Assembly: GCF_030678915.1 (NCBI RefSeq)
Contig: NZ_JAUUTZ010000009.1
Location: forward strand, 62,001 to 126,000
Direction of reading: 5' to 3'
Source of the DNA: Paracoccus wurundjeri
GTDB taxonomy: Bacteria > Pseudomonadota > Alphaproteobacteria > Rhodobacterales > Rhodobacteraceae
DNA: 64,000 nt
The notes below the pieces were generated by a model that did not search any database, was not told the DNA's origin, and worked only from the letters and a program-made list of their open reading frames with translations. The first letter of the stretch is position 1; each line of letters opens with the position of its first letter. Shown here piece by piece: positions 10,664 to 29,360 of this stretch. The translations under genes and the position numbers were made by a program.

Positions 10664-11266
10664 ATGCGTCTTTATTCGATGCCGTCTTCGGGAAACAGCT
10701 ACAAGATCAGGCTTTTGTTGTCTCTGACCGGGCGGCGGGCCGAGGTGGTCGATTGCGAGGACGGATCCGAGGCACTGGCGCAGGCCAGAGCCGGAGGTGT
10801 TCTGCCCTTCGGCAAGGTTCCGGTGCTGGAGCTGGACGACGGGCATAAGCTGGCCGAATCCGGGGCGATCCTGTGGTATCTGGGGGAGGGGACGGATTTC
10901 GTGCCCGGCGATCCGGTTCTGCGGGCGCAGATGCTGGGCTGGATGTTCTGGGAGCAATATAATCACGAGCCAGTCATCGCGGTGCGCCAAGCGCTTCTGA
11001 ATTATCCGCGCCGTGCCGCAGAGGCGACGCCCGCGAGACTGGATGATCTGCTGCACCGGGGTCATGCGCTGCTGCAGGTCATGGAAGAGCATCTGGCCGG
11101 AAATGACTGGCTGACAGGCGGGCCGAGTCTGGCGGATATCTGTCTTTACGCCTATACCCATTCTGCCGGAACACGCGGGGGGTTCGGGATGGAGCGGTTC
11201 CCCGCAATCGGCGCATGGCTGCGCAGGATCGAAGCGCTGCCCGGGTATAAGGAGCTGAGTGAATGA
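10664..11266 (+). CDS. Glutathione S-transferase family protein
   Basis: A 200-residue cytoplasmic protein. The N-terminal thioredoxin-like domain starts MRLYSMPSSGNSYKIRLLLSL with the SGNSYK active-site region, followed by the glutathione-contact motif KVPVLEL and the AESGAIL segment typical of GST domains. The C-terminal helical domain includes LTGGPSLADICLYAY, the family's N-capping motif. Start at 10664 was chosen because it matches the domain start. The longer frame from 10610 runs into the repeat. Overlaps the next gene by four bases (ATGA). Substrate unknown. Confidence 0.88.
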   Translation: MRLYSMPSSGNSYKIRLLLSLTGRRAEVVDCEDGSEALAQARAGGVLPFGKVPVLELDDGHKLAESGAILWYLGEGTDFVPGDPVLRAQMLGWMFWEQYNHEPVIAVRQALLNYPRRAAEATPARLDDLLHRGHALLQVMEEHLAGNDWLTGGPSLADICLYAYTHSAGTRGGFGMERFPAIGAWLRRIEALPGYKELSE

Positions 11267-11865
11267 GTTTCGAATATCTGCTGACGGCGTTCATCGTCTG
11301 CGCCGTGCCGGGGCTTGGGGTGATCTATACCCTGTCCTCGACGCTTGGCGGCGGGATGCGTGCCGGGCTTTGGGCCGCGCTTGGCTGCACCATTGCGACG
11401 GTGATTCACATGCTGGTGGCCATGGCCGGGTTGGCGGCACTGCTGCATGCCAGCGCCGTCCTGTTCCAGGCGGTGAAATTCGCGGGTGTCGCCTATCTGC
11501 TCTGGATGGCATGGGGCGTATTGAAGGGCGAGGGAGGCTTGCGGTTTCATGCGGCAGCGCAGGTTCCGCCGCGACGGCTGATCTGGCGCGGAATACTGCT
11601 TAACCTGTTGAATCCCAAACTGCCGATGTTCTTCATGGCGTTCTTGCCGCAATTCCTGCCCGCCAATGCTGGGATCGGCGCGCTATTCGAACTGGGCCTG
11701 GGATTTACCGGAATGACCTTTGGCGTCTTCGTGCTTTATGCCGCCCTTGCCGCCAGTGGCCGGGATGCGGTGCTGGCATCGGAATCCGCGATGCGATGGC
11801 TGCGGCGGGTCTTTGCGGCGTCATTCGCTATGCTGGGGCTGAAACTGGCGGTGAGCCGGGCGTGA
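11263..11865 (+). CDS. LysE/RhtB family amino-acid exporter
   Basis: A 200-residue inner-membrane protein with about five to six hydrophobic segments. The N-terminus ends in the family motif [21 protein letters not shown] (seen at about residues 19-39), followed by GLWAALGC and the [18 protein letters not shown] segment typical of LysE/RhtB proteins. These export amino acids such as homoserine, threonine or lysine. The start codon overlaps the previous stop and its own stop overlaps the GTG of rnhA, so it is translated within one operon. The substrate is not predictable. Confidence 0.88.
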
Positions 11866-12311
11866 CAACAATTTTCGCATGGACCGACGGGGCTTGCAGC
11901 GGCAATCCCGGTCCCGGAGGCTGGGGTGTATTGTTGCGGGCCAAGGAGGGCGACAGGATCGTCAAGGAGCGGGAATTGCAGGGCGGCGAGGCCGCGACCA
12001 CCAATAACCGCATGGAACTGATGGCGGCGATCTCGGCGCTCGAGGCGCTGACCCGGCCAAGCGAGATTACCGTGATCACCGACAGCGCCTATGTGAAGAA
12101 CGGCGTCACCCAATGGTTGCATGGCTGGAAACGGAATGGCTGGCGCACCGCGGGCAGGAAGCCGGTGAAGAACGAGGAATTGTGGCGGCGGCTGGACGAG
12201 GCGCAGGCGCGGCACCGGGTCGAGTGGCAATGGATCAAGGGCCATGCCGGCCATGCCGAGAACGAGCGCGCGGACGAGTTGGCCCGCGCCGGGATGGGGC
12301 CTTTCAGATGA
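11862..12311 (+). CDS. rnhA: Ribonuclease HI
   Basis: A 149-residue endonuclease that cuts the RNA strand of RNA-DNA hybrids and removes R-loops and primers. The catalytic carboxylates are in [15 protein letters not shown] (Asp), NRMELMAAI (Glu), ITDSAYV (Asp) and the C-terminal NERADELAR (Asp). The basic handle KRNGWRTAG is present. The start is GTG at 11862, overlapping the LysE stop (GTGA). The family length (about 150) supports this start over a longer frame. Downstream overlap of four bases with the YicG-like gene. Confidence 0.96.
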
Positions 12312-12946
12312 GCTTCGAGGCGCTGCTGGTGGCGCTGGATTACGGGGCGGTCCTGATATTCGCCCTGACCGGGGCGCTTGTCGCCAGCCGCGCGCAGCTT
12401 GATCCGGTGGGGTTCATTTTCATGGCGGCCCTGACAGCGGTGGGCGGCGGTACTTTGCGGGATTTGATATTGGGGCGCGAGACGGTGTTCTGGATCGAAC
12501 ATCCCTCATATGTGCTGATGGCTGCTGCGGCGGCCCTGCTGGTGTTCTGGACCGCGCATCTGATCGAAAGCCGCTACCGGCTGCTGGTCTGGCTGGACAG
12601 CGTCGCCTTGGCGGTCGCGGCCGCAGCCGGGGCGGGGGTGGCCATGGAAAGCGGCGCGGGCCCGGTGATCGTCGTGATCATGGGAATCGTGACCGGCACA
12701 TTCGGCGGGCTGATGCGCGATGTCGTCGGGAACGAGGTTCCCCTCGTGCTGAAGCAGGGGCAGCTTTATCTGACTGCGGCTTTTGGTGGGACATTTACGG
12801 CTGCCTTGCTGAACTGGCTCGGGTTTCGGCAGGGCGACGCTTTGATCGCCTGCGCGGCGGTGGTCTGGATTCTGCGCGCCGGCAGTCTGATATGGGGGTG
12901 GAAACTGCCCGTTTACCGGCCTCGCCCGCCAAGAGGGCCGGGTTGA
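12308..12946 (+). CDS. TRIC/YicG-family (UPF0126) membrane protein
   Basis: A 212-residue polytopic membrane protein with the duplicated three-helix TRIC layout. The first repeat has [17 protein letters not shown] and [13 protein letters not shown]. The second has [20 protein letters not shown], with the matching glycine and Arg-Asp positions. Prokaryotic TRIC proteins form trimeric cation channels. The physiological role of YicG in bacteria is poorly known. The ATG overlaps the rnhA stop. It is the last gene of the ispH operon, which ends with a T-rich stretch near 12963. Confidence 0.87.
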
Positions 12947-13477: not shown

Positions 13478-13640
13478 TTTCCGCGTCACGGCGATTGTTC
13501 CGGCCGGCTGCATCTGATCCCTTCTGCGCTGGTCTTGCATTTTTGCGTCAAGACCGGGGTTTCCGGATGACTTGGCGCGGAACCATAACTGAACCGAAAC
13601 GTTTCAATTCGTGAAACTTTCCCGAGAAAAGGGTATAATC

Positions 13641-13817
13641 ATGCAGAAACTGACCGCTATCCTGTTTTGCGGCCTGACGCTGGCGGTCACCGCCTGTGGA
13701 CCCAATACCGCAACCCGCGCCACCACCGGCGCCGCGACGGGTGCGGTCGTCGCCGGGCCTGTTGGTGCAGTCGCCGGCGCTGCTATCGGTGGCAGCGGTG
13801 CGGTGCGTGTCAGATAA
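13641..13817 (+). CDS. Small glycine-zipper lipoprotein
   Basis: A 58-residue predicted lipoprotein. The signal sequence ends in the lipobox VTAC, with the lipidated Cys near residue 19. The mature part is almost entirely an alternating Gly/Ala glycine zipper (TTGAATGAVVAGPVGAVAG), which favours helix packing in or on membranes as in OsmB-like proteins. A GTTTCA/TGAAAC inverted repeat lies just upstream at 13601-13617. A longer in-frame start at 13611 would add ten polar residues before the signal sequence and is less likely. The function is unknown, probably envelope-associated. Confidence 0.65.
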   Translation: MQKLTAILFCGLTLAVTACGPNTATRATTGAATGAVVAGPVGAVAGAAIGGSGAVRVR

Positions 13818-14127
13818 CAGAGCGTTGTCAAAAGGACGAGCTACCCGTTGTAACCTTCCCTGTTACCGGCAGGCCGCGTCCTGTCGTGTTACAACCGCAT
13901 ATCTGACCACTGGAAGCATTGTCGCGACCGTTTTTCGAGGGTGCAATTTCTTTTCGACATTAAAATTTTAAACTTGAAGCAAAATCCGTTTTCCACCACT
14001 ATTCTCCCAAGCTATGATTCTAAAATGGTCTGCGGTATCACGACAGGCATATCTGGCTGCAAGGCGCTCTGGCCATGCGGATCCGCATGCCGGAAGGCAT
14101 TTCGGTCAGGCAACAGGGAGAAAAATT
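13818..14127. other. Leader region of the aromatic-acid ABC transporter operon
   Basis: A 310-base spacer without a convincing gene. Its middle is AT-rich (13945-14000) and contains the predicted operator listed separately. A ribosome-binding site CAGGGAG lies before the ATG at 14128. The operator sits about 150 bases upstream of the start, so the transcript probably has a long untranslated leader. Confidence 0.5.
13953..13978. promoter_or_regulatory. Predicted MarR-type operator, transporter side
   Basis: An imperfect 26-bp palindrome with arms TTCGACATTAAAA (13953-13965) and TTTTAAACTTGAA (13966-13978). Ten of thirteen positions pair. A second copy with nearly the same right half lies at 28499-28524, between the marR gene and the catabolic operon. 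The shared stretch AAAATTTTAA-R-CTTGAAG-Y-AA is found at both. That two distant promoters flanking one catabolic island share it suggests binding by the MarR protein encoded at 28627. Confidence 0.6.
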
Positions 14128-15285
14128 ATGAAAAAACTCGGAGCAGCGGTCGCGGCGGGCGTAATCGGCATTGGCGGTTCTGCCGCTGCCGAGATCAAGG
14201 TGGGGATGATCGTGACCCTGTCGGGGCCACCTGCGGCGCTTGGCCAGCAGGCAGTGGACGGGTTCAAGCTTGCTCTGGAGGATCTTGACGGCAAACTGGG
14301 CGGCGAGGAGGCCAAGCTGGTCGTCGAGGATGACGGGCTGAAGCCAGAGGTGGCGCTTTCCGCCGCAACCTCTCTGGTCGAGCAGGAGCAGGTCGATTTC
14401 GTCGTCGGCACGGTTTTCTCGAACATGTTGCAGGCGATTTTCCGGCCCGTGGTCGAATCCGAAACCTTTCTCATCAGCCCGAATGCCGGGCCTTCGACTT
14501 TCGCGGGGAATGCCTGCAATCCCTATTTCTTCGTGACCTCGTATCTGAACAACCAGAATGCCGAGGTGATGGGTAAATACGCGCAGGAGGCAGGCTATGA
14601 AAAAGTGTTCATGCTTGCGCCCAATTATCAGGCCGGGCGGGATAATCTGGAAGGCTTCCGGGTCCATTACGAGGGCGAGATCGTCGATGAAACCTATGTT
14701 CCGCTGAACAGTCAGGACTATTCCGCCGAGATCGCCCGGATCGCGACATCCGGGGCCGATGCGGTCTTTGCCTTTGCTCCGGGTGGCATGGGCGTGCGCC
14801 TTGTCGGGCAGTTCCGCGACAGCGGGCTTGCCGACAAGGTTCAGTTCATGTCGGTTTTCACCACGGATGAAACCACCCTTCCGGCGCAGAAAGACGCGGC
14901 AGAGGGCTTTATCGCCGCAGGAAACTGGGCGCCGGATTTCGAGGGCGAGGCAAGCCAGGCCTTTGTCGCCGCCTTCCAGGAGAAATTCGGTTATGTCCCG
15001 GGCGGCTATGCCATGCAGGCTTATGACGCAGCCATGCTGATCGACAGCGCCGTCAGTGCCGTCGACGGCGACCTGAGCGACAAGGCCGCGGTGCAGGCTG
15101 CGCTTGAAGCGGCGGATTTCACCTCGTTGCGCGGTGATTTCAGCTTCAACAGCAACCATTATCCGGTGCAGGATTTCTATCAGCTATCGGTTGCCAAGCG
15201 CGAAGACGGCCAATGGGCCACGGCGATGGGTGAACTGGTCATCAAGGATTATGCCGACAATTTGGCTGAAGAATGCAGCATGTAA
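14128..15285 (+). CDS. ABC transporter substrate-binding protein (branched-chain/aromatic acid type)
   Basis: A 385-residue secreted binding protein of the type I periplasmic fold (LivJ/HAAT family). The signal peptide is MKKLGAAVAAGVIGIGGSAAA, followed by the typical first strand IKVGMIVTLSGPPAALGQQ. Mid-protein cues include DDGLKPEVALSAATSLVEQ and FVVGTVFSN. The start at 14128 has GGGAG upstream. It leads an operon with two permeases, two ATPases and a cupin, next to a CoA-dependent 2-aminobenzoate pathway. HAAT-family transporters beside aromatic pathways often carry aromatic acids rather than amino acids, so uptake of anthranilate or a similar benzoate is the best guess. Confidence 0.88.
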   Translation: MKKLGAAVAAGVIGIGGSAAAEIKVGMIVTLSGPPAALGQQAVDGFKLALEDLDGKLGGEEAKLVVEDDGLKPEVALSAATSLVEQEQVDFVVGTVFSNMLQAIFRPVVESETFLISPNAGPSTFAGNACNPYFFVTSYLNNQNAEVMGKYAQEAGYEKVFMLAPNYQAGRDNLEGFRVHYEGEIVDETYVPLNSQDYSAEIARIATSGADAVFAFAPGGMGVRLVGQFRDSGLADKVQFMSVFTTDETTLPAQKDAAEGFIAAGNWAPDFEGEASQAFVAAFQEKFGYVPGGYAMQAYDAAMLIDSAVSAVDGDLSDKAAVQAALEAADFTSLRGDFSFNSNHYPVQDFYQLSVAKREDGQWATAMGELVIKDYADNLAEECSM

Positions 15286-15336
15286 GCTTTCTGGCGGGAC
15301 CGGCTGCGGTTCCGCCGATTTGCGGATAGAATCCTG

Positions 15337-16263
15337 ATGTCATTGACGCTGCTCATCCTCCAGATTCTGAACGGGCTACAGCTTGGCGTGATCCTGTTCC
15401 TGATTGCCGCCGGGCTGACGCTGGTTTTCGGGGTCATGGGATTCATCAATCTCGCCCATGGCGTGCAATATATGCTTGGCGCCTATCTGGCGGTGTTCCT
15501 TTACGGGCTGACCGGCAATTTCGTCGCCGCGCTGGTCCTGGCGCTGCCGCTTGCGCTGTTGCTGGGGCTGCTGCTGGAATTCCTTGTGTTCCGGCATCTT
15601 TACGACCGCGATCATCTTAGTCAGGTGCTGGCGACATTCGGGGTGATCCTGTTTCTCAACGAACTCATGAAAATGCTGTTCGGGCCGGCGACGCTGAGCG
15701 TTCCGCCTCCGGAATTCCTGAATTTCTCGTTCAAGCTGGTCGATGGGCTGCTTTATCCCGCCTATAAACTGGCGGTGATTGTGGCGGGGCTGCTTGTGGC
15801 GCTTGGCCTGTGGCTGGTGATCACGCGCACGCGCATCGGGATGCTGATCCGCGCAGGGGCGACTACGCCTGACATGGTATCCGCGCTGGGCGTGGATGTC
15901 CGGCGGCTGTTCCTATGTGTCTTCGGTTTCGGCGCGATGCTGGCGGGTTTCGCCGGAGTGATGGCCGCGCCCATCTTCGCGGTCGAGCCGGGCATGGGGG
16001 ACAATCTGCTGATCGTGGCTTTTGTCGTGATCATCATCGGCGGCGCGGGCTCGATCCGGGGCGCCTTCGTTGCGGCGCTGCTGGTCGGGCTGGTGGATAC
16101 GCTGGGACGGATGCTGGTGATCGACGGGTTGCGGCTGATCATGAACCCCTCGGCGGCCAATCAGGTCGGCCCGGCCATTGCCTCGATGCTGATCTATGTG
16201 CTGATGGCGCTGGTGCTGTTCTGGCGGCCACAGGGGCTTTTCGCCCCGAAAGCCGCGAGGTGA
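15337..16263 (+). CDS. livH: Branched-chain-type ABC transporter permease (LivH-like)
   Basis: A 308-residue inner-membrane permease with about eight hydrophobic segments. N-terminal NGLQLGVILFLIAAGLTLVFG and FINLAHGVQYMLGAY are typical of LivH. The late GGAGSIRGAFVAALLVG segment contains the conserved coupling region. It forms the membrane channel with the LivM-like protein four bases downstream. Substrate is set by the binding protein encoded just before it, which by context is probably an aromatic acid. Confidence 0.92.
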   Translation: MSLTLLILQILNGLQLGVILFLIAAGLTLVFGVMGFINLAHGVQYMLGAYLAVFLYGLTGNFVAALVLALPLALLLGLLLEFLVFRHLYDRDHLSQVLATFGVILFLNELMKMLFGPATLSVPPPEFLNFSFKLVDGLLYPAYKLAVIVAGLLVALGLWLVITRTRIGMLIRAGATTPDMVSALGVDVRRLFLCVFGFGAMLAGFAGVMAAPIFAVEPGMGDNLLIVAFVVIIIGGAGSIRGAFVAALLVGLVDTLGRMLVIDGLRLIMNPSAANQVGPAIASMLIYVLMALVLFWRPQGLFAPKAAR

Positions 16264-16267
16264 CGGG

Positions 16268-17248
16268 ATGAGCGAGCAGACAAACCCGGAAGCCAAGGCG
16301 GCAACCGCAGCCGCCATGCCGCTGATCGTGACACTCGTCCTTTTCGCGGCGCTTGCCCTGATCCCGCTTCTTGCCCAGTTCTATGGCGGTGGCTGGCTGA
16401 CCTCGCTCGCGGTGCGGGCGATGCTGCTGGCGATCGCGGCCATATCCCTTGATCTGCTGATCGGGCATGGCGGGCTGGTCAGCTTCGGGCACAGCGCCTT
16501 TATCGCGATCGGGGCCTATACCTGCGGGATCATGATCACCGAGGGGGTGGACGAGATCGCCCTGATCCTGCCGGTCGCCATGGCCGTGGCAGGCGGCTTT
16601 GCCCTTGTCAGCGGCGCAATCAGTCTGCGGACCTCGGGCGTTTCCTTTATCATGATCACGCTGGCTTTCGGCCAGATGGTCTATTTCGCGCTTGGTTCGC
16701 TGGCGCAATACGGTGCGGATGACGGGCTGACCCTGTGGGCGGCGCCGGGTTTTCTGGGCGGCAAATGGCTTGCCTCGGATATCGGCGTATATGTCACGGT
16801 CCTGCTGTTGCTGATCGGGACATGGGTGCTGGTCCACCGGATCACCGGTTCGCGCTTTGGCAGAGTACTGCGCGCGGCGCGGCAAAACCCTGTCCGTGTG
16901 GCCTCGATGGGCTATCCGGTGCGCCGCTATCAGTTGGCGGCCTATTGCATCGCCGGAATTATCGCCTCGGTGGCCGGGGTCATGTGGGCAGTGCAGTTCG
17001 CATTCGTCAGCCCGTCTTTGTCGGCATGGCAAAGTTCGGGCGATCTGATCGTGATGGTGATCCTTGGCGGGATGGCCAGTCGCAACGGCGCATTGATCGG
17101 GGCGTTGTGCTTCATCCTGATCGAGGAAAGCCTTTCCGCGATCACCAATGACTGGCGCCTGATCTTTGGCCCGTTCCTGGTGCTGATCGCGCTTTACGCG
17201 CGCGGCGGGCTTGCGGGGCTGCTTGACCGGATGAGGGGGCCGCAATGA
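16268..17248 (+). CDS. livM: Branched-chain-type ABC transporter permease (LivM-like)
   Basis: A 326-residue permease. The segment LDLLIGHGGLVSFGHSAFIAIGAY is the LivM hallmark. RFGRVLRAARQNPVRVASMGYPVRRYQ is the coupling loop, and GGMASRNGALIGALCFILIEE closes the domain. The N-terminal ~20 residues are hydrophilic. Its stop overlaps the LivG start (ATGA). It pairs with the preceding permease. Confidence 0.92.
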   Translation: MSEQTNPEAKAATAAAMPLIVTLVLFAALALIPLLAQFYGGGWLTSLAVRAMLLAIAAISLDLLIGHGGLVSFGHSAFIAIGAYTCGIMITEGVDEIALILPVAMAVAGGFALVSGAISLRTSGVSFIMITLAFGQMVYFALGSLAQYGADDGLTLWAAPGFLGGKWLASDIGVYVTVLLLLIGTWVLVHRITGSRFGRVLRAARQNPVRVASMGYPVRRYQLAAYCIAGIIASVAGVMWAVQFAFVSPSLSAWQSSGDLIVMVILGGMASRNGALIGALCFILIEESLSAITNDWRLIFGPFLVLIALYARGGLAGLLDRMRGPQ

Positions 17249-18005
17249 GCGAGGCGATCCTGCAATTATCCGGTTTGCGCAAAGCCTTCGGTGCGCTTGT
17301 CGTGACCGATGACGTTCATCTGGAACTGCGCCGGGGCGAGTGTCACGCCTTGATCGGCCCGAATGGCGCAGGAAAATCGACGCTGATCCATCAATTGTCG
17401 GGAATGCTGCAACCGGATGCGGGAAGCATCGTTTTCATGGGGCAGGACGTGACCCGCCTCAGCCAGTCTGAGCGCGCGCTGGCAGGGTTGGGCCGCTCGT
17501 TCCAGATTACCTCGATCCTGCCTGAATTTACGGTGCTGGAGAATGTCGCGCTTGCCGCGCAGGTTCGGGCCGGATCCAGCTTCCGCTTTCTTGGCCGCGT
17601 CGCGGATGAGCCGCTGTTGAACGAAGCCGCGATCTCGGCTCTGTCGCGGATCGGGCTGGCGGGAAAGTCGGAAATGGTGGCGGGTACGCTGTCCTACGGC
17701 GAAAAGCGCCTGCTGGAGCTTGCCATCGCAATCGCGGGCCGCCCCCATGCGCTTTTGCTGGACGAGCCGCTGGCCGGTATGGGGCGCGCCGAAAGCGCCA
17801 GCCTGACGCAGGTGCTGCTGGCATTGAAGGCCGAATATCCCATCCTGCTGATCGAGCATGACATGGAGGCGGTGTTCCAGCTTGCCGACCGGGTCTCGGT
17901 GCTGGTGGCAGGGGCAATCGTCGCGACAGGCACACCGGATGAGGTTCGGGCCGATCCCAAAGCGCGGGCCGCCTATCTGGGCGATGACCATCCGGAGGGC
18001 GCGGC

Positions 18006-18009
<4 letters not shown>
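17245..18009 (+). CDS. livG: ABC transporter ATP-binding protein (LivG-like)
   Basis: A 254-residue ATPase. Walker A is GPNGAGKST. The signature is TLSYGEKRLLELAIAIAG, the LivG-style variant with SYGEKR instead of SGGQQ. Walker B is LLLDEPLAGMG. Length and order (H-M-G-F) match LIV-type systems. Start and stop both overlap neighbours by four bases, implying translational coupling with livM and livF. Confidence 0.93.
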
Positions 18010-18704
<695 letters not shown>

Positions 18705-18733
18705 CATGTATTCGATAACAGGAGGAAGACAGC

Positions 18734-19168
18734 ATGGATCATGGAGTAACACCGGCCGCCGATGCGTTGGGCGGCAAGGCATGGACCGTCGTCGGGCAGA
18801 CCTATACGCCGAAACTGCGTTCTGAAAACGCCTTCATCTGGCATGCGGTTATTCCGGCGGATACTTTCGTGCCGCCGCATATCCATCCGTTGCAGGACGA
18901 ATGGATATATGTGCTGGAAGGTCACCTTGAAATCGAGTTCGGCGCGGAAAAACATTCCGCCGGACCTGGGGATACCGTGTTCATGCCCAAAGGCATCGCG
19001 CATGGAATCTTCAACCGCTCGGGCAAGACGGCAAGCTGCACCTTCGGGGTCGCGCCGACCGGCAGGCTGTTCGAGCTGTTCGGCAGACTGGACGGCGTCA
19101 CCGATCCGCAGGAACTGGTCCGTATCTCGGCCGAGCATGACGTGGATTTCCTTCCGCCTCCGGGCTGA
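18734..19168 (+). CDS. Metal-binding cupin-domain protein
   Basis: A 144-residue single-domain cupin. Motif 1 is PPHIHPLQDEWIYVLEG, with the usual His-x-His-Glu ligands. Motif 2 is PGDTVFMPKGIAHGIFNRSG, with the third His. These ligands normally hold iron, manganese or zinc. It follows the transporter operon by 29 bases with GGAGGAAG at the right spacing and faces the catabolic operon across a repeat element. A role in the same pathway, such as dioxygenation, isomerisation or ligand sensing, is plausible but not shown. No DNA-binding domain is present. Confidence 0.75.
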   Translation: MDHGVTPAADALGGKAWTVVGQTYTPKLRSENAFIWHAVIPADTFVPPHIHPLQDEWIYVLEGHLEIEFGAEKHSAGPGDTVFMPKGIAHGIFNRSGKTASCTFGVAPTGRLFELFGRLDGVTDPQELVRISAEHDVDFLPPPG

Positions 19169-19282
19169 GCGCAATACCGCCCGATGACGGAAACCGTGGC
19201 CGTGGTGTTTTCCCGCGGCCCCTTATCCACAATACAGGACGCTGTCGCCCGCCGCCCGCTACCCCGGCCGGCACACCGATAT

Positions 19283-19336
19283 TTCTTCTTTGTTCAAATA
19301 CCTTGCCGGGGGTCTGGGGGATGCAAAATCCCCCAG
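19283..19336 (+). repeat. Dispersed intergenic repeat, copy 3
   Basis: The element begins TTCTTCTTTGTTCAAATACC and ends in a hairpin with arms CTGGGGGAT (19314-19322) and ATCCCCCAG (19328-19336). The core matches copies at 9476-9527 and 10593-10656. It lies in the 249-base gap between the convergent cupin and flavin monooxygenase genes, where it could terminate one or both transcripts. Confidence 0.7.
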
Positions 19337-19417
19337 CGATCGCCGGAGGCAAAAAAACCTCAATCCCGGTCGCCCCGCAGCCGTCATCCATATGGGGCTT
19401 CGCGGTTTCCCGTTTCT

Positions 19418-20659
19418 TCAGCCGTCCGCTTCCGGCGCGGCAAATCCCGCCAGCGTTTCGTAATCCCCGACGATGGCCCGAAGCTCTTCGGGGGTGGCGA
19501 TGTCGTGAATATCGGCAAACCCATCCGGCGCGCGGTTCTCGACGAAATCGATCACGCCTTCCGGCCCGCCCGAGCGGTTGGCCGCGACGATCGCCGCCGT
19601 CGCCGGTCGGCGTTTCGCGTCATAGGCCTCCAGCGCCTGAATGACATCGCCGCCCTGCGCCAGCCGGTCGGCCAGATCGCGGGCGTCAAGGATCGCCTGG
19701 CTCGCGCCGTTCGAGCCAACCGGATACATGGGATGCGCGGCGTCGCCCAGAAGCGTAACCCGCCCATGCGACCAGCGGGGCAGGGCGTCGCGGTCGCACA
19801 TCGGGTAGACGAAGATATCTTCGGTCGCGCGGATCAGATCCGTGATATCCAGTTCGGGAACAGACAGATGCCCTTTGGCCATCCGCAGCGCCTCTTCCGC
19901 AGGGGCCTTGCGCGACCAGTCCTCGCGCGTGGGGATCGGGGCCGAACCGTCGCCCAGCCGGGAACACACAACCCAGTTGGTCAATGCCTCACCGGGCCGG
20001 TCAGGATCATGGGCGATCGGGTACAGCACCAGCTTGTGCCTCATCCCGCCCGCCACGATCATCGACGCGCCGTCAAGGAAACGCGGCCACCAGACGGCGC
20101 CGCGCCACATCAGGACACCGTTCCATTGCGGCGCCCCCTGATCGGGATAGAAACTGCCGCGCACCACCGAATGAATGCCATCGGCCCCGATCAGCACATC
20201 GCCGGTTTCCTGGAAGCGCGATCCGTCGCGAGATTCGAACCATGCGGTGACCTGTTCGGCGGATTGCTCGAACGAGACAAGCCGCCGGTCGCCGCTGACC
20301 GCATCCGGGCCAAGCCGGTCCAGAACCGCGTCATGGATGGTTTTCTGCAACCTGCCGCGATGGATCGAGAATTGCGGCGAATTCAGCCCCGCCCATGTTC
20401 CGCGCGGCTGCGCCACGATATCCTGCCCGCGCCCGGTCTTGTAGATCAGCCGCCGCGTGCGCACCGCCACCGCGTCAAGCGCGGGAAGAAGGCCCAGCCG
20501 CTCCAGTTCCGCAATCGCATGGGGCAGGGTGTTGATGCCGACCCCCAATTCACGGATTTCGCGCGATTGTTCGAAGATCCGCGCATCGATCCCGCGCTCA
20601 TGCAGCATCAGGGCCAGTGTCAGGCCACCGATGCCGCCCCCTGCGATCAGTATTTTCAT
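19418..20659 (-). CDS. FAD-dependent aromatic monooxygenase
   Basis: A 413-residue flavoprotein of the class A hydroxylase type. The dinucleotide-binding motif is GGGIGGLTLALMLHERG at residues 7-23. The second FAD motif, VTLLGDAAHPMYPVGSNGASQAI, and the intermediate DVLIGADGIHSVVR (the DG motif) are intact. The start at 20659 begins MKILIAGGG. An upstream in-frame extension is unlikely because it overlaps the RidA-like gene. It is last in the eight-gene operon with the 2-aminobenzoyl-CoA enzymes. Similar to 3-hydroxybenzoate-6-hydroxylase/PhzS-like enzymes. Its substrate may be an uncommon ring intermediate or a second aromatic that feeds the pathway. Confidence 0.82.
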   Translation of the reverse strand: MKILIAGGGIGGLTLALMLHERGIDARIFEQSREIRELGVGINTLPHAIAELERLGLLPALDAVAVRTRRLIYKTGRGQDIVAQPRGTWAGLNSPQFSIHRGRLQKTIHDAVLDRLGPDAVSGDRRLVSFEQSAEQVTAWFESRDGSRFQETGDVLIGADGIHSVVRGSFYPDQGAPQWNGVLMWRGAVWWPRFLDGASMIVAGGMRHKLVLYPIAHDPDRPGEALTNWVVCSRLGDGSAPIPTREDWSRKAPAEEALRMAKGHLSVPELDITDLIRATEDIFVYPMCDRDALPRWSHGRVTLLGDAAHPMYPVGSNGASQAILDARDLADRLAQGGDVIQALEAYDAKRRPATAAIVAANRSGGPEGVIDFVENRAPDGFADIHDIATPEELRAIVGDYETLAGFAAPEADG

Positions 20660-20688
20660 CCGCTTCCCCCCTTGCCCGGCCCTGTCCG

Positions 20689-21087
20689 TCAATCGGCCAG
20701 AACCGCTGTCGCCTCGATCTCGATCAGGGCCTGATCCTCGATCAGGGCCGCCACCACGACCATCGTCATCGCCGGGAAATGCCGGCCCAGAACCTTGCGA
20801 TAAACTTCGCCCACTTCTTTCTGGCGGGCAAGATATTCGGCCTTGTCGGTGACATACCATGTCAGGCGGGTGATATCCTGCGCGGATCCGCCGGCCGCTT
20901 CGACGATTGCCATGACATTGCGCAGGGCCTGTTCCATCTGGCCGATGAAATCGCTGCTTTCGAATTCCTGCCGTTCGTTCCAGCCGATCTGGCCGCCAAC
21001 GAAAAGCTGCCGGTCCCGGGTCAATACGCCATTGGCATAGCCTTTGGGCGCGGCCCAGTTTTCGGGGGTGATAAAGCTATGTCCCAT
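20689..21087 (-). CDS. RidA-family protein lacking the usual imine-binding arginine
   Basis: A 132-residue protein of the YjgF/YER057c/UK114 (Rid) superfamily, which typically hydrolyses reactive enamines and imines. The recognisable segments are LFVGGQIGW, AIVEAAGGSAQDITRLTWYVTD and the C-terminal ALIEDQALIEIEATAV. Classical RidA proteins have an Arg in the PARSxVxV position. Here it reads PAMTMVVVAAL, so the arginine is Met. The terminal Glu is kept. It therefore belongs to a different Rid subgroup. It lies in the 2-aminobenzoate operon, where ring intermediates carry an enamine nitrogen, so a deamination or protective role is a reasonable inference. Confidence 0.8.
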   Translation of the reverse strand: MGHSFITPENWAAPKGYANGVLTRDRQLFVGGQIGWNERQEFESSDFIGQMEQALRNVMAIVEAAGGSAQDITRLTWYVTDKAEYLARQKEVGEVYRKVLGRHFPAMTMVVVAALIEDQALIEIEATAVLAD

Positions 21088-21531
21088 CTATTCTTCCTCA
21101 TTCTGTAGATATGGCATGAGATCGCGGCGGATATCCTTGGGCCAGGGGCAGGGGTGGCCCTCTGCGTCCACCAGAACCAGCGCCGAGCGGAATATCATCC
21201 GGGGTTCCCCGCCCGCATGCGCGGTGACCCGCATATGCGCGCTTGTCTTGCCCAGCCGCGCCAGCCACAGCGCAAAGCGCAGCCTGTCGCCATGCCGCGA
21301 CGGGTGCGTGAAACGCGCTTCAAGCTGCGCCGTCGGGACCGCGCCGTCGTGATGGAGTTTTTCGAACGGGTGGCCGATATGATCGAAGAATGCTTCGACC
21401 GTGTCATTCATCATCTCGAAATAGCGGGGATAGAAAACGATCCCCGCCGGGTCGCAATGGCGGAACAATATCTTCTCGTCCCGCAGGAATGCGTGGCCGG
21501 GAATGGTGATATCGGTGCGGAGAGTCATCAA
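21088..21531 (-). CDS. Acyl-CoA thioesterase of the 4-hydroxybenzoyl-CoA type
   Basis: A 147-residue hotdog-fold thioesterase. The segment FRHCDPAGIVFYPRYFEMMND carries the Asp-Pro-Ala-Gly-Ile-Val-Phe-Tyr-Pro pattern whose Asp is catalytic in 4-hydroxybenzoyl-CoA thioesterase. The rest, HDGAVPTAQLEARFTHPSRHGD, fits the family. It is sandwiched between the RidA-like gene and the CoA ligase, overlapping the latter by four bases. It may release CoA from dead-end aromatic thioesters. Confidence 0.87.
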   Translation of the reverse strand: MMTLRTDITIPGHAFLRDEKILFRHCDPAGIVFYPRYFEMMNDTVEAFFDHIGHPFEKLHHDGAVPTAQLEARFTHPSRHGDRLRFALWLARLGKTSAHMRVTAHAGGEPRMIFRSALVLVDAEGHPCPWPKDIRRDLMPYLQNEEE

Positions 21532-23150
21532 CCCTGCCCGTCGCGCAATCGGAAACGCTGAATTTTGCCTGATTCCGTTTTCGGAAGCGCGGTGATGAAT
21601 TTGATCGAGCGGGGATATTTATAGGGCGCGATTTCCGCTTTCACATGCGCCTGCAGCAGCTTGACCATATTTTCGTCGCCTGCCTGTCCCTCGGACAGGA
21701 CGACATGTGCCTGAACGATCTGACCACGTTCGTCATCGGGCGCGGCCACCACCGCGCATTCGACAACGGCGGGATGCGAGAGAAGCGCCGCTTCCACCTC
21801 GGGTCCGGCGATATTGTAGCCTGCGGAAACGATCATATCGTCGCTGCGGGCGGCGAAATGCAGGTAGCCGTCCTCGTCCATCACGAAGGTATCGCCGGTG
21901 ATGTTCCAGCCGTCCTGCACGTAATCCGCCTGCCGGTCATCGGCCAGATAGCGGCATCCGGTCGGGCCGCGTACCGCCAGCCGCCCGGGTTCTCCGGCAG
22001 GAACGGGTTTGCCCGCGTCATCGACGATTTTCGCCTCATATCCGCTGACGGGTCGCCCGGTACATGCGGGGCGGTGATCGTCGAAACGGTTCGAGATGAA
22101 GATATGCAGCATCTCGGTAGAGCCGATCCCGTCCAGCATGGGCTTGCCGGTCTTGGCCATCCATTCTTCGTAAACCGGGCGCGGAAGGGTCTCGCCCGCC
22201 GAGACTGCGGCGCGCAGGCTGGACAGATCCGCGCCCTCATCCATGGCCCGCAGCATGGCGCGGTAGGCCGTGGGGGCGGTAAAGCAGACCGTGGCGCGGA
22301 ACTTCTCGATGATCTCGATCATATTGGGCGGCGACGCGGTTTCCAGAAGCGTTGCCGTTGCCCCGAAGCGCAGGGGAAACACCGCCAGCCCGCCCAGACC
22401 AAAGGTAAATGCCAAAGGCGGAGAGCCGACAAAGATATCATCCGGTGTTACGCCAAGGACTTCCTTCGCATAGCCATCCGCGATAATCAGCAGATCGCGA
22501 TGATAATGCGCCGTTGCCTTGGGTTTGCCCGTGGTGCCCGAGGTAAAGCCAAGCAGAGCCACATCGTCGCGCGAGGTCTGGACGGCATCGAAGCTGACGG
22601 GCTTTTCAAGCGCCAGCCGGTCGAGTTCCGCATCGTGGTTCAGGGTGCCGTCAAAGCCAACCACCGATTTCAGATGATCCGAAGTTTTCGCGCAGCTGAC
22701 CATTTCATCCATCAGCCTGGTGTCGCAAAGCGCATGGGTGACCTGAGCCTTGTCCACGATCTTGGCCAATTCTCCCGCCCGCAGCATGGGCATGGTATTG
22801 ACGACCACTGCGCCGGCTTTCGTGGCTGCCAGCCAGACTGCGACCATGGCCGGATTGTTGGCCGAACGGACCAGCACGCGATTGCCCGGCCTGACACCCA
22901 GATCCTCGACCAGTACATGGGCCAGCCGGTTGGTCCAGTCCGCCAGTTCCTTATAGGTGCGGCGGCGGCCGTTTCCGATCAGGGCGGTGTGGTCGCCAAA
23001 GCCGCGCTCGACCATGCGATCGGTCAGTTCCACGCCGATATTCAGTTTCTCGGGATAGTCGAATCCGGCCAGCAGGAAATCCGGCTGCGCCTTGGGCGGC
23101 GGCAGATTGTCCCGCGTGAATGTATCGATATGGGCTGTATAGCCAGACAT
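21528..23150 (-). CDS. 2-aminobenzoate/benzoate-type CoA ligase
   Basis: A 540-residue AMP-forming acyl-CoA synthetase that would activate the aromatic acid with ATP and CoA. The phosphate-binding loop is GFTSGTTGKPKATAHYHRD. Downstream come the motifs DGIGSTEMLHIF and the hinge region DDMIVSAGYNIAGPEVEAAL. A late Lys lies in LPKTESGKIQR. The DGIGSTEMLHIFISN signature matches benzoate and 2-aminobenzoate ligases. The ATG at 23150 (MSGYTAH) with GGAG upstream was chosen over a TTG six bases earlier. Given the 2-aminobenzoyl-CoA enzyme in the same operon, 2-aminobenzoate is the most likely substrate. Confidence 0.88.
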   Translation of the reverse strand: MSGYTAHIDTFTRDNLPPPKAQPDFLLAGFDYPEKLNIGVELTDRMVERGFGDHTALIGNGRRRTYKELADWTNRLAHVLVEDLGVRPGNRVLVRSANNPAMVAVWLAATKAGAVVVNTMPMLRAGELAKIVDKAQVTHALCDTRLMDEMVSCAKTSDHLKSVVGFDGTLNHDAELDRLALEKPVSFDAVQTSRDDVALLGFTSGTTGKPKATAHYHRDLLIIADGYAKEVLGVTPDDIFVGSPPLAFTFGLGGLAVFPLRFGATATLLETASPPNMIEIIEKFRATVCFTAPTAYRAMLRAMDEGADLSSLRAAVSAGETLPRPVYEEWMAKTGKPMLDGIGSTEMLHIFISNRFDDHRPACTGRPVSGYEAKIVDDAGKPVPAGEPGRLAVRGPTGCRYLADDRQADYVQDGWNITGDTFVMDEDGYLHFAARSDDMIVSAGYNIAGPEVEAALLSHPAVVECAVVAAPDDERGQIVQAHVVLSEGQAGDENMVKLLQAHVKAEIAPYKYPRSIKFITALPKTESGKIQRFRLRDGQG

Positions 23151-23152
23151 CG

Positions 23153-24310
23153 TCAACTCCCCCTCAGTTGATCCAAAACCTGCCGCGCGATGATGATCCG
23201 TTGCACGTCAGAGGCGCCCTCATAGATGCGCAGGGCGCGGATATCGCGGTAAAGCGCCTCGACCTTCTGGCCGCTGCGCACGCCATCGCCGCCATGCAAC
23301 TGCACGGCGCGGTCAATCACCTGCTGGGCCTGATCGGTCGAGAACAGCTTGGCCATCGCCGCCTCTCGGCTGACCCGCGCCGCACCCTGATCCTTGAGCC
23401 ATGCGGCGCGATAGATCAGCAGCGCGCTTGCATCCACATCCACGGCCATATCGGCGATATGCGCCTGTACCATCTGCATATCAGCAAGCGGTTTGCCCGC
23501 GATATGGCGCTCGGTCACACGGGCTACGGATTCATCCAGCGCGCGGCGGGCAAAGCCAAGCGCGGCGGCGGCAACCGTGGTGCGGAAGACGTCCAGAACC
23601 GACATCGCAAGTTTGAACCCCTGCCCCGGCGCGCCGATCATGGCCGAAGCGGGCAGGCGCAGATCGGAAAAGCGCAGCCGGGCCAGCGGATGCGGGGCCA
23701 TGACTTGTAACCGTTCGACCACCTCGAAACCGGGCATGTCGGGGGTGACGATAAAGGCGGACAACCCCTTTGCCCCCGGCGCTTCGCCGGTGCGGGCGAA
23801 CACCGTGTAGAGATCGGCGATTCCGCCATTCGAAATCCATGTTTTCTCGCCGTTCAGGATATAATCGTTGCCGTCCTTCGTGGCGGTCATGGTCGAATTC
23901 GCGACATCGGAGCCCGATTGCGGCTCGGTCAGGGCGAATGCGGATATCGCGCGGCCTGTCGTGGTCAGGGGCAACCATCGCTGCTTTTGCTCGGCCGTGC
24001 CGAAAAGCGAGATCGCCCCGGTTCCCAACCCCTGCATCGCGAAGGAGAAATCCGCCAGCCCGTCATGCCGGGCCAGTATCTCGCGCGAAAGGGCCAGTTT
24101 TCGCACATCCAGAGGCGTGGCGTCAAAGCTTGCGGTATGGTCCAGCCAACCGGCCCCACCCAGTTCTGCGACCAGTTTGCGGCAGGTGCTGTCGGTGTCG
24201 CTATGGTCGATGCCCGTAAGGTTGCGGCTTGCCCATTCGTCCAGTTCTTCCGCGAAATCGCGGTGATGCGGTTCGAAAAACGGCCAGTCAAGAAAGCTGC
24301 GATCCGCCAT
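23153..24310 (-). CDS. Acyl-CoA dehydrogenase
   Basis: A 385-residue flavoenzyme of the acyl-CoA dehydrogenase family. It contains [19 protein letters not shown] (FAD contact), [13 protein letters not shown], and the C-terminal [16 protein letters not shown], whose Glu is the catalytic base position in short/medium-chain enzymes. Start at 24310 ([16 protein letters not shown]) overlaps the previous gene's stop by one base. It is one of several beta-oxidation-like steps in the operon that would process the ring product after its dearomatisation. Confidence 0.92.
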
Positions 24311-25110
24311 CAGTTGCCCTCGAATACCGGTTTGCCCTTGGCGACAAAGGCGTTGTAGGCGCGGGTGAAATCCTCGGTTTGCATGCAAATCGCCTGCGCC
24401 TGCGCCTCGGCCTCGATGGCCTGCTCGATGGACATTGCCCATTCCTGTGCCAGCATCGTCTTGGTCATCATATGCGCGAAATTGGGGCCTGCCGCGATGC
24501 GCCGGGCCATTTCCGTCGCTTCGGCCTCCAATGCATCGGCGGCGACCACGCGGTTGTAGAATCCCCATGCCGCGCCTTCCTCGGCGCTCATCGCGCGTCC
24601 GGTGTAAAGCAGTTCCGCCGCGCGTCCCTGTCCGATGATCCGGGGCAGGATGGCGCAGGCCCCCATATCGCAACCAGCAAGCCCGACGCGGGTGAACAAA
24701 AATGCGGTCTTCGCCTCGGGCGTGGCGATGCGCAGATCCGAGGCCATGGCGATGATCGCGCCCGCACCGGCGCAAATACCGTCGACGGCGGCGATGATCG
24801 GCTTGCCGCAATTCACCATGGCCTTGACCAGATCCCCCGTCATTCGGGTGAAGCTCAGCAGATCTTTCATGCTCATGCCCGTCAGCGGGCCGATGATGTC
24901 ATGCACATCCCCGCCGGAACTGAAATTGCCGCCATTGGGGGCAAAGACCACGGCGCGGATATCGTCGGAATAATGCAGATCGCGGAACCAGTCGCGCAGC
25001 TCGGCATAGCTGTCGAAGGTCAGCGGGTTCTTGCGTTCGGGCCGGTCAAGCGCAAGATGGGCGATGCCGTCCTCGATACGGCATTTGAAATGCTGAACGT
25101 CACTTCGCAT
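24310..25110 (-). CDS. Enoyl-CoA hydratase/isomerase family protein
   Basis: A 266-residue crotonase-fold protein. The oxyanion-hole segments [11 protein letters not shown] and [23 protein letters not shown] are clear. In classical hydratases two Glu residues follow. Here the region reads [22 protein letters not shown], with the DMGA-x-x-x-LPR pattern found in a distinct crotonase branch. The Asp may take over from Glu, so hydration, ring hydrolysis or isomerisation are all possible. The gene has AAGGA six bases before ATG and follows a 285-base gap that separates it from the short-chain dehydrogenase. Confidence 0.88.
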
Positions 25111-25395
25111 GGCTGTTTCCTTTTTGGATCGTTTCGGACTTGGCAGGCATCCTTGGGCGCACCGCTATATCCCGGCGCGGAATCGAGGGCCGGAGGCCCG
25201 CCGCGCGGCGCCCCGCCGCTCCCACGGACGGGCGCTTGGGTGACGTTAATTCGGCGGGTCGGGCGTCGTTCGGGGTTTCACCATAAAGTGCCGACCACAA
25301 CCGCGCCTGCGCCCATCCGCGGCCGGGCACTGCGCGGCTTCTCTCGGTTGTCGAGACCAAGGGCGGCCTATTGACCCCGAGTCCTACCACCTCCC

Positions 25396-26151
25396 TCACA
25401 CCTCACCCCCCGACAGGCTAAGCGCGTGACCGTTCACCGATGTCGCCGCGTCCGAGCACAGCCACAGCGCGGTGCCCGCGACCTCTGCTACATCGATCAG
25501 GCGCTTCTGCGGGTTCCCGGCGATCAGGGTTTTCGTCGCAGCATCCTTGTCCACGCCGGTTCCGGCCATGATCGTCCGGATCGAGTCCTGCAATAGCGGC
25601 GTGTCCATAAAGCCGGGGCAGATCGCATTCACCGTCAGCCCGCTGCGCCCCAGTTCCTGCGCAAGCGCCCGGGTCAACCCGATGACTCCATGCTTGGCGG
25701 CGCAATAGGGCGCGACATAGGGATAACCCTTCAGCCCGGCGGTCGAGGCGATGGCGATCAGCCGCCCCCAGCCGGCGGTTTTCATCTCTTCATGCGTGGC
25801 CTGCCACAGATTGAAAACGCCTTCCAGATTGACGGCCAGCGACGCCCTGAAATCCGCACCCGTAATCTTGCGGAACGGGGTGCTTGGCGCGGCGCCCGCA
25901 TTGGCGATGGCGATGCTGATCGGGCCGTTCTCTGCACGGGCGGTTGACAGAGCGACATCGAGTTCGTCGCGGTCGGTGACGTCAGCGGTGACGGCGAAAG
26001 CCCCGGTTTCCTTCGCTATGGCACGCAAGGGAGCCTCGCGGCGACCCATGATTGTCACGCGTGCGCCGCCCGCCGCGAATTGCCGGGCGATCTCGGCACC
26101 GACACCCGATCCGCCACCGGTAACCACCACATGCTTGCCCGCCATACTCAT
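25396..26151 (-). CDS. Short-chain dehydrogenase/reductase
   Basis: A 251-residue NAD(P)-dependent oxidoreductase. The cofactor motif is [14 protein letters not shown] near residue 12. The catalytic Ser is in [11 protein letters not shown] and the Tyr-Lys pair is YCAAK, followed by [12 protein letters not shown]. The start at 26151 overlaps the stop of the upstream bifunctional gene (ATGA), so translation is coupled. It is in the position of a 3-hydroxyacyl-CoA dehydrogenase in a CoA-based ring degradation pathway, oxidising a hydroxy-ring or open-chain intermediate. Confidence 0.9.
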
Positions 26152-28442: not shown

Positions 28443-28498
28443 GATCCTCCGCCTCCTGTTCATGCTGCCGGGGAAAAGTAGAAGAGAGGGCTGGTTAT

Positions 28499-28524
28499 TT
28501 CAACTAAAAAATTTTAAGCTTGAA
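28499..28524. promoter_or_regulatory. Predicted MarR-type operator, catabolic side
   Basis: An imperfect 26-bp palindrome with arms TTCAACTAAAAAA (28499-28511) and TTTTAAGCTTGAA (28512-28524). Nine of thirteen positions pair. The right half plus GAAG-Y-AA is almost identical to the copy at 13953-13978. It lies 57 bases upstream of the operon start and 103 bases upstream of the divergent marR, so one protein bound here could control both. Confidence 0.6.
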
Positions 28525-28626
28525 GTAATTATGGGCCGCAGGCGATGTTGGCATGCTGAAGACGTTTTCGCCTTGAAAGTTTTCGGCCCGACGTGAAACC
28601 TTGTTCTGCGAAGAAAAGAGGATCGC

Positions 28627-29130
28627 ATGCTCGAAGGTAAGCAACCGGACGAAAAGCAAGATTTCGCTTCGTCAGACGATGGCGCCCTGGCCGTGCGGCG
28701 GCTGAAGCTGTGGATTCGGATGCTTGGCGTCACCCGGCTGGTCGAGAACCAGCTTCGCGAGTTTCTGCGCGTCGACCATGACACGACCTTGCCGCGCTTT
28801 GACGTCATGGCGACGCTGCACAGACGCCGCGACGGGCTGAGCATGACGGAACTGTCGCGGACCCTGCTGATTTCGAATGGCAATGCGACGGCGGTGGTGG
28901 ATCGTCTGGTCCGCGACGGGCTGGTGCGGCGTATTCATTCCGACGCGGACCGTCGCCGCGTCACCGTGATCCTGACGCCCAAGGGGGTGGCGCAATTCGA
29001 GGCCTTGGCGGTCAGGCACCGCGCCACGATTGACCGCCTGTTCGCCCAGCTTGACGATGCGGATCTGGACATGATGCGCGACGTGCTGCGGCGCCTGCGC
29101 AGCGATCTGACCGGCGAAAGTGGCGGGTAG
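28627..29130 (+). CDS. MarR-family transcriptional regulator
   Basis: A 167-residue winged-helix regulator. The DNA-binding region is LSMTELSRTLLISNGNATAVVDRLVRDGLVRRIHSDADRRRVTVILT (about residues 75-120), with the Asp-x-Arg wing tip. The N-terminal ~20 residues are extra. The gene is divergent from the CoA-dependent aromatic operon. MarR proteins next to such operons (BadR, HcaR, CouR types) usually repress until a CoA thioester or aromatic acid binds. The palindrome at 28499-28524 is a candidate target. Confidence 0.9.
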   Translation: MLEGKQPDEKQDFASSDDGALAVRRLKLWIRMLGVTRLVENQLREFLRVDHDTTLPRFDVMATLHRRRDGLSMTELSRTLLISNGNATAVVDRLVRDGLVRRIHSDADRRRVTVILTPKGVAQFEALAVRHRATIDRLFAQLDDADLDMMRDVLRRLRSDLTGESGG

Positions 29131-29360
29131 CGCGGTTGTTGCTGGAGGAGCGCCAAGCGACTGGCTGGCGCTCATGTGGCCGTGTTGGAGCGTAGGATGG
29201 GTTATATGTGAGCGGAGCTTTGCGGAACGAAGCTGTCCTCGATCATCAACGATCCAATGCCGGCAATCGGTATATTCGGAGCGTTGAGAAACACAACTGC
29301 ATCAAGTGCTTTAGCGCCTCATTGGTTGTCTTCGAACATGCCGGACGGCATATTGTCAGC

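Follow-up and report, generated by a model that had tools for sequence, protein, structure and literature searches.

The known abm pathway, which proceeds through 2-aminobenzoyl-CoA (anthraniloyl-CoA), involves a CoA ligase, a fused FAD monooxygenase/old-yellow-enzyme reductase and beta-oxidation-like enzymes, and work on this pathway has reportedly been carried out in Azoarcus evansii. The abm genes are named from Cupriavidus in one report (PMC2842291), and an annotation study states that too little was known of the tryptophan route via anthraniloyl-CoA monooxygenase/reductase for it to be included (PMC9007349). Among the closest described regulators, CouR of Rhodococcus jostii RHA1 is a MarR repressor that responds to p-coumaroyl-CoA (PMC4737184), BadR of Aromatoleum sp. 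CIB and Rhodopseudomonas palustris is a MarR repressor whose effector is cyclohexane carboxyl-CoA (PMC9795900), and IacR and related MarR proteins are regulators of auxin catabolism (PMC9613470). A literature search, mainly of open-access papers, returned no regulator or operator of the 2-aminobenzoyl-CoA route.

The window, by which is meant the whole 64-kb stretch of DNA that was analysed, has a minus-strand catabolic operon that resembles the abm pathway in having a ligase, a fusion enzyme and beta-oxidation-like enzymes. Its first gene (26148-28442) encodes the putative 2-aminobenzoyl-CoA monooxygenase/reductase, in which an FAD monooxygenase is fused to an old-yellow-enzyme domain (Pfam FAD_binding_3 and Oxidored_FMN; NCBIfam PRK08255 above cut-off) and which lies in the same cluster as an aryl-CoA ligase; we take this architecture to be that of 2-aminobenzoyl-CoA monooxygenase/reductase. 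Of 140 PDB sequence matches, 60 were listed, and none of these covered both halves of the enzyme. On the same strand are genes for a short-chain dehydrogenase (25396-26145; the 25 of 230 NCBIfam matches listed were all below cut-off), an enoyl-CoA hydratase (24310-25110; NCBIfam PRK08258 above cut-off), an acyl-CoA dehydrogenase (23153-24310; NCBIfam matches below cut-offs), an aryl-CoA (2-aminobenzoate) ligase (21528-23156; TIGR02262, the benzoate-CoA ligase family, just above cut-off) and a 4HBT thioesterase (21088-21528; Pfam 4HBT_2).

Divergent from this operon, the marR gene (28627-29130, plus strand) encodes a predicted MarR-family repressor of 167 aa (Pfam MarR, PF01047, 46.9 bits against a cut-off of 24.6; MarR_2, PF12802, 47.6 bits against 27). 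The uptake operon, also on the plus strand, begins with an ABC substrate-binding protein (14128-15285; Pfam Peripla_BP_6) and continues with two permeases (15337-16263 and 16268-17248; both Pfam BPD_transp_2), a LivG-like ATPase (17245-18009; Pfam ABC_tran and BCA_ABC_TP_C) and a further ATPase that was judged LivF-like by eye (18006-18704; open frame only). Between the main parts of the uptake and catabolic operons (18734-21087), the former runs on into a gene for a cupin protein (18734-19168, plus strand; Pfam Cupin_2) and the latter into genes for a RidA-like protein (20689-21087, minus strand; Pfam Ribonuc_L-PSP) and an FAD monooxygenase of unassigned pathway step (19418-20659, minus strand; NCBIfam PRK07538 above cut-off); all three recur in relatives.

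A sequence-only reading of the window had proposed that two of its intergenic regions carry a near-identical sequence centred in imperfect 26-bp palindromes, and this was confirmed. The 21-mer AAAATTTTAARCTTGAAGYAA was found without mismatches at 13962-13982 and at 28508-28528; no further match at up to 3 mismatches was detected in the 64-kb window, and none in 100 shuffles. The proposed 26-mers were exact: TTCGACATTAAAATTTTAAACTTGAA at 13953-13978 (site A) agrees with its reverse complement at 20 of 26 positions, and TTCAACTAAAAAATTTTAAGCTTGAA at 28499-28524 (site B) at 18 of 26. Their placement was also as had been proposed, with site A ending 149 nt before the binding-protein gene of the ABC transporter operon, site B lying between the divergent marR (plus strand) and catabolic operon (minus strand), and 14,546 bp separating the starts of the two 26-mers. 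Since 26-base windows with such symmetry are common in the 64 kb (17 reach at least 20 symmetric positions and 127 at least 18), it is the shared sequence, not the symmetry, that needs explaining. No Rfam match at gathering score was obtained in the region 13500-29500, and an RNA structure or riboswitch was rejected on that ground.

Loci from relatives were collected by alignment of the fusion enzyme, and the best 80 of 586 were retained; these include Rhodobacterales, Rhizobiales, Thalassospira, Halomonadaceae (Billgrantia, Litchfieldella and Vreelandella) and SAR116. A box consensus, the 12-bp palindrome TTYAARYTTRAA, was fixed from the window and whole-genome relatives and then counted in these 80 loci; the discovery and counting sets partly overlap, since the locus of Paracoccus alkanivorans (L173) shares 94.8% identity across 9,750 bp with that of one whole-genome relative (G018). 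As G018 belongs to the genus of the window's strain, this match makes Paracoccus the probable genus. With at most 1 mismatch, the box was present within 150 nt before the fusion-enzyme start in 76 of the best 80 loci, compared to 35 of 1600 Markov shuffles, and its commonest form had CAAN2TTG at the centre of TTYAARYTTRAA. Many related bacteria from sea and soil carry it.

The box is normally paired. Box pairs with summed mismatches of 3 or fewer preceded the catabolic operon in 66 of the best 80 loci and occurred in 1 of 1600 shuffled controls; when spacings of 10-20 bp were tested, the best pair was spaced at 14 bp in 38 loci and at 15 bp in 28, and at no other value. Under a stricter rule (sum of 2 or fewer, 14 or 15 bp), 51 pairs were found within 200 nt upstream of the fusion enzyme and none elsewhere in 1,584,864 bases, and the one strict pair at any other spacing from 8 to 24 was likewise upstream of the fusion enzyme. 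In the window, pairs with a sum of 3 or fewer at spacings of 8-24 were limited to 13953-13964/13967-13978 and 28499-28510/28513-28524, which are the two halves of sites A and B. The 26-bp palindrome of the sequence-only reading is therefore a double box, spaced 14-15 bp centre to centre and spanning 26-27 bp together. When the left box was present, the right boxes were not significantly weaker (p = 0.12 and 0.27).

A compatible form of the regulon would have one MarR dimer read the whole 26-bp palindrome, centred on AAAATTTT, as a single operator. The outer half-sites TTCAAG/CTTGAA and the central AAA/TTT are indeed better conserved than the inner halves, and a form that is perfect over the 26 bp, TTCAAGCTTAAAATTTTAAGCTTGAA, was found in Curvivirga (L131), Litchfieldella (L156) and a Rhodobacterales bacterium (L143). 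However, the second box was absent by the pair rule in 10 of the 76 loci, including L173, and at a further site described below, spacings of both 14 and 15 bp were tolerated, and some two turns separate the outer half-sites, a wide span for a single MarR dimer. The single operator is consequently regarded as improbable, and the 26-bp palindrome was replaced as the basic unit by the double box because of the single-box loci and the two spacings.

In 14 other whole-genome relatives with a full-length fusion enzyme, TTYAARCTTRAA (at most 1 mismatch) was present just upstream of that gene in nine. The box in G008 was within 1 mismatch only when the symmetric pattern was used (counted by eye), and in G022 the pattern occurred with 1 mismatch inside a neighbouring frame, 175 nt before the fusion enzyme. 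No such box was found just upstream of the fusion enzyme in G009, G038 or G039. In G038 and G039 a different palindrome, TTTAGRYCTAAA, was seen by eye before the fusion-enzyme gene, with GTTTAGATCTAAAC / TTTTAGGCCTAAAC in the place of the box (loci L055 in G038 and L056 in G039); a 50%-identical MarR is encoded directly upstream in G038, which is a possible case of joint change of operator and MarR.

Two models were built from relatives alone. The first was a weight matrix derived from the right boxes of the 76 relatives, with the window excluded. Its five best scores in the window all fell in sites A and B. The best (41.1) was the right box of site B on the marR side, TTTAAGCTTGAA (28513-28524, plus strand), and the second (35.6) was the right box of site A, TTTAAACTTGAA (13967-13978, plus strand), upstream of the transporter operon. 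These were followed by the left box of site B, proximal to the catabolic operon (28499-28510, minus strand; 24.4), by the minus strand at 28513 (23.8), and by the left, upstream box of site A, TTCGACATTAAA (13953-13964, minus strand; 15.2), which is weak, with 3 mismatches to TTYAARYTTRAA. The left box of site B carries 3 mismatches when the pair is taken at spacing 14; starting it at 28498 gives spacing 15 and lowers the number to 2. The next score was 9.3, at 28566, also in the intergenic region between marR and the catabolic operon.

The second model, a sequence model of 71 relatives' boxes, was used to search the whole genome of the window's strain; 150 of 1187 first-look candidates were scored, so weak sites in this genome could be missed. 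Three sites were obtained at E≤10: site B (28507-28530, E = 6.6e-4, the best in the genome), site A (13961-13983, E = 0.018 genome-wide) and a third site with E = 0.24. The same number emerged when the 21-mer was scanned against the 5.08-Mb genome at up to 3 mismatches, and the pattern read backwards gave no site. The third site (C56:4164-4184; box at G000:C56:4169-4180) lies directly upstream of a gene for tryptophan 2,3-dioxygenase (TDO), identified by TIGR03036 at 391.6 bits against a cut-off of 390.7. The E value of this hit falls within a mixed, weak range, so the site rests on its position and on the 21-mer scan. It is a single box, with at least 7 mismatches at 14 or 15 bp beside it. 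A fourth match to the core, TTCAAGCTTGAA at C4:116130, was rejected, as it lies within a coding frame.

The motif is thus rare: frequent occurrence elsewhere in the genome, which the sequence-only reading had named as the outcome that would count against it, was looked for, and only the three sites in 5.08 Mb were found. These counts also bear on whether sites A and B are functionless and alike by chance or recent duplication. AT-rich stretches in a genome of 61% GC invite chance palindromes, but the absence of the 21-mer from shuffles, the three genome sites and the box in 76 of the best 80 relatives already refute this explanation, to which we attach next to no probability. The shared sequence and its conservation, unlike plain palindromy, are beyond chance.

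TDO is the first enzyme of the route from tryptophan via kynurenine to 2-aminobenzoate. Its site, which had not been part of the sequence-only reading, is an independent success of the regulon prediction. The presence of TDO under the box in this genome argues for aminobenzoate over salicylate as the substrate, and TDO is also found in the same cluster in many relatives. The NCBIfam name of PRK08255, 'bifunctional salicylyl-CoA 5-hydroxylase/oxidoreductase', is probably misleading for the fusion enzyme, since its clusters often hold TDO. A kynureninase gene (G000:C74:25426-26589; TIGR01814 above cut-off) is located on the contig of the window, 36.6 kb to the left of where the window begins; a search of its 4.2-kb locus, allowing up to 2 mismatches, found no box before it. 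The TIGR03035 profile for kynurenine formamidase gave no match in this genome.

The box was also found in other arrangements. Several relatives have TDO within the boxed operon or near it; in two loci (L110 and L150) a single box pair is present, which TDO shares from the divergent side. In two same-genus genomes (G046 and G061), a double box heads an operon of CoA ligase, binding protein, permeases, ATPases and TDO, and the stretch between the fusion enzyme (73-74% identical) and an acyl-CoA dehydrogenase contains a further box. In G018 and G006 the model places a box directly before a binding protein of the Peripla_BP_6 family, at a great distance from the catabolic operon, and in G009 a CoA ligase is preceded by a box. 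The transporter operon of Palleronia (L175) has its own box pair at -232/-217, and single boxes were present at cupin genes in L117 and L140. In the loci of named relatives (best 80 of 586), 29 of 31 transporter binding-protein genes had no box with at most 1 mismatch within 250 nt; many of these genes stand behind the CoA ligase or TDO of a boxed operon. Uptake and degradation under one box therefore recur in relatives but are not a rule.

Of the 23 further TDO loci in same-genus genomes, each 3.3-3.8 kb long, 22 had no box with at most 1 mismatch; the single hit (L081, in G008) was about 880 nt upstream. Some of these genomes have TDO inside the boxed operon or next to it; in the others, for example G059 and G005, no box was found. 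Two loci gave irregular readings: overlapping frames at 10976-12166 and 11758-12594 together make up the CoA ligase of L042 (G018), and the fusion-enzyme match in L011 contained one in-frame TAG. Both are possible frameshift or assembly errors.

The distribution of the box was then compared with that of MarR. At E≤1e-25 a MarR match was present in 24 of 61 same-genus genomes (including that of the window, in which the window's own MarR was the only one), and a box-model hit at E≤0.1 was present in 17 of the 61, all of them within the 24 genomes with MarR and none among the 37 without. Fisher's test gave p = 6e-10, a value that overstates the case because the genomes are related, and the cut of E≤0.1 was chosen after the table had been seen; nor is the test wholly independent, since two training boxes (L137 and L173) came from Paracoccus. 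At E≤1 the hits extended to 22 genomes, 20 with MarR and two without (G012 and G070), where they fell inside unrelated frames. Seven genomes (G005, G052, G057, G059, G062, G065 and G066) had a good TDO and no such MarR, and in these neither a box with at most 1 mismatch near TDO nor a model hit was found.

In total, 39 box-model hits were obtained in the 61 genomes. Each of the 24 hits at E≤0.11 preceded either the fusion-enzyme operon or the gene of a transporter binding protein, and the 15 hits with E from 0.11 to 1 were divided between pathway genes or positions beside marR (7) and other locations (8). By the reference set, no pathway gene was found downstream of six hits with E within 0.16-0.81 (G006:C3:205994, G046:C4:366640, G061:C10:759559, G061:C14:67753, G046:C4:1954751 and G008:C1:1113552). 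Four of these (L241-L244: G046:C4:366640, G061:C10:759559, G061:C14:67753 and G046:C4:1954751) represent two weak hits common to G046 and G061; they adjoin alike genes outside the pathway and are perhaps chance matches in close relatives.

A MarR relative was encoded in 78 of the best 80 loci, and the recognition helix contained SNGN[VIA]T in 79 of 80 MarR sequences, including that of the window, the exception being L122; alignment rows from G023, G018, G046, G003 and others were left out as wrong-frame ORFs. The boxes might be operators of one regulon that are bound by another transcription factor travelling with the pathway. MarR and the pathway genes co-occur, and co-occurrence alone cannot separate regulators; furthermore, one of the two loci that lack a MarR relative (L179) has the box and no MarR within 10 kb downstream. 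The other (L153) is cut off shortly behind the fusion enzyme. The near-constant presence of MarR, the position of the site B box next to marR, and the retention of both box and MarR in G046 and G061, even though marR is about 20 kb from the fusion-enzyme box there, point to MarR itself. A different binder is accordingly considered unlikely, slightly more so than the single operator.

In G061 (L197, 8400-13304), G050 (L198, 3441-7548) and G046 (L195, 10327-15246), the MarR proteins closest to that of the window (72-75% identical) adjoin a Rieske ring-hydroxylating dioxygenase operon with boxes upstream. This operon is benzoate/anthranilate 1,2-dioxygenase-like, with matches below cut-offs (L198 tested), and the same MarR perhaps controls a second way of opening the ring through it.

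By sequence, the right box runs into TTGAA(A)-N17-TAnnnT in the profile of the 76 loci, and the -35 element of the catabolic promoter would therefore be hidden beneath any protein bound to the box. In the window, the candidate promoter of the catabolic operon is TTGAAA-N17-TACTTT on the minus strand, with its TTGAAA in the left box of site B. Candidates were also recognised for TDO (TTGAAG-N17-CAGCCT) and for marR (TTGAAG-N17-CGATGT, which is poorer); a promoter consensus scan at site B returned none. For the transporter at site A there were two candidates, TTGAAG-N17-CACTAT and, from the consensus scan, TTTCCA-N17-TATGAT, the second of which would place the box just upstream of the -35 element. 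Similarly, the transporter sites of G018 and G006 (L233 and L238, at about 1500-1620) are just upstream of TTGACT, which is -35-like. Simple occlusion is less sure at transporter sites, because the box is possibly upstream of the -35 element there.

The motif could in principle be a conserved promoter and nothing else, that is, a -35 element TTGAA with an AT-rich upstream element and without a repressor, since the right half, CTTGAA, is its most conserved part and stands 17 nt before TAnnnT. Such a promoter would not need the left box, the symmetry of the box or the fixed spacing of 14 or 15 bp, and promoters are everywhere, yet the model gives three sites in 5.08 Mb; a promoter alone is therefore very unlikely. 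Repression is the best reading at the catabolic operon as judged from its promoter sequence, and transporter promoters may be controlled in another way.

We conclude, with a probability of roughly 0.84, that one MarR repressor governs uptake, the opening of tryptophan and the degradation of 2-aminobenzoyl-CoA, and that the boxes are its putative operators. Sites A and B would be operators of one regulon, the unit being the 12-bp box TTYAARYTTRAA, normally present twice. MarR (28627-29130) would bind as one dimer per box; this is the simplest assumption, given that 10 of 76 loci have a single box. At site B it would occupy the -35 elements of both marR and the divergent, CoA-dependent catabolic operon and so repress the two; from site A it would control the ABC uptake operon, and from the third site (G000:C56:4169-4180) TDO. 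MarR would be released by a metabolite of the pathway, an aryl-CoA (for example 2-aminobenzoyl-CoA) being the likeliest, after which tryptophan opening, uptake and ring degradation would rise together. We infer MarR binding, repression, the one-dimer-per-box arrangement, the ligand and the transporter substrate from these patterns, and 2-aminobenzoyl-CoA as the ligand is a guess made by analogy with CouR and BadR.

The prediction of the sequence-only reading that a single MarR regulon serves uptake and degradation was supported by the box before the catabolic operon in 76 of the best 80 loci, by independent copies before transporter genes in G018, G006, L175, G046 and G061, and by strong box hits that follow the MarR gene across the 61 same-genus genomes. 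The reading of the palindrome as a double box and the inclusion of TDO are additions to it. In a wider formulation, to which we give about even odds, this would be an unnamed MarR regulon of Rhodobacterales, Rhizobiales, Thalassospira, Halomonadaceae and SAR116 that joins tryptophan opening and uptake to 2-aminobenzoyl-CoA degradation, in which two cooperative dimers 14-15 bp apart lie over the -35 element and respond to 2-aminobenzoyl-CoA, and in which a relocated TDO or transporter can carry its own box.

The boxes offer a testable operator code for the tryptophan/anthranilate route that one annotation study omitted (PMC9007349). This code can help to decide from DNA sequence alone which transporters, ligases and cupins belong to the route, and it argues that the 'salicylyl-CoA 5-hydroxylase' of NCBIfam probably acts on 2-aminobenzoyl-CoA in these clusters. 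With its fixed spacing of 14 or 15 bp, the double box also lends itself unusually well to asking how a stretch of DNA is shared between two MarR dimers.

Systems of this kind are known, CouR and BadR being examples; the regulon itself was not found in the searched literature. Three protein chains, 7kua, 7kfo and 7krh, which we take to be IacR-related MarR regulators of auxin catabolism, match the window MarR weakly (E 1.5e-4 to 1.9e-4), and the enzymes of that pathway are different. The likeness to IacR is that of MarR repressors in a pathway for an indole-derived aromatic compound (PMC9613470). An inverted-repeat candidate operator near its own gene, a trait of the MarR family, is present at site B and conserved in relatives. 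CouR, in the available account, is alike in being a MarR repressor of a CoA-dependent aromatic pathway with several operons in its regulon, an inverted-repeat box over the -35 element and one operator region for divergent promoters (PMC4737184). A box over the -35 element is found by sequence at the catabolic operon, and site A is ambiguous in this respect. In contrast, the CouR box is given in the same account as cATTGA-N5-TCAATg, with a single repeat per promoter (PMC4737184), and the solved CouR chains (6c28 and others) match the window MarR weakly (E = 2.1e-5 over about 100 residues). BadR, in the accessible part of its description, is likewise an acyl-CoA-responsive MarR with two predicted operators over the -35 elements of divergent promoters; it differs in its pathway and is set apart by its operator, described there as CAATnnATTG with an own copy for each promoter (PMC9795900). 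That form is not the conserved box of the present loci, which is TTYAARYTTRAA, present as a double box at a fixed 14 or 15 bp. Because of the weak similarity to CouR and the different operators of CouR and BadR, the window MarR is not filed as either of them.
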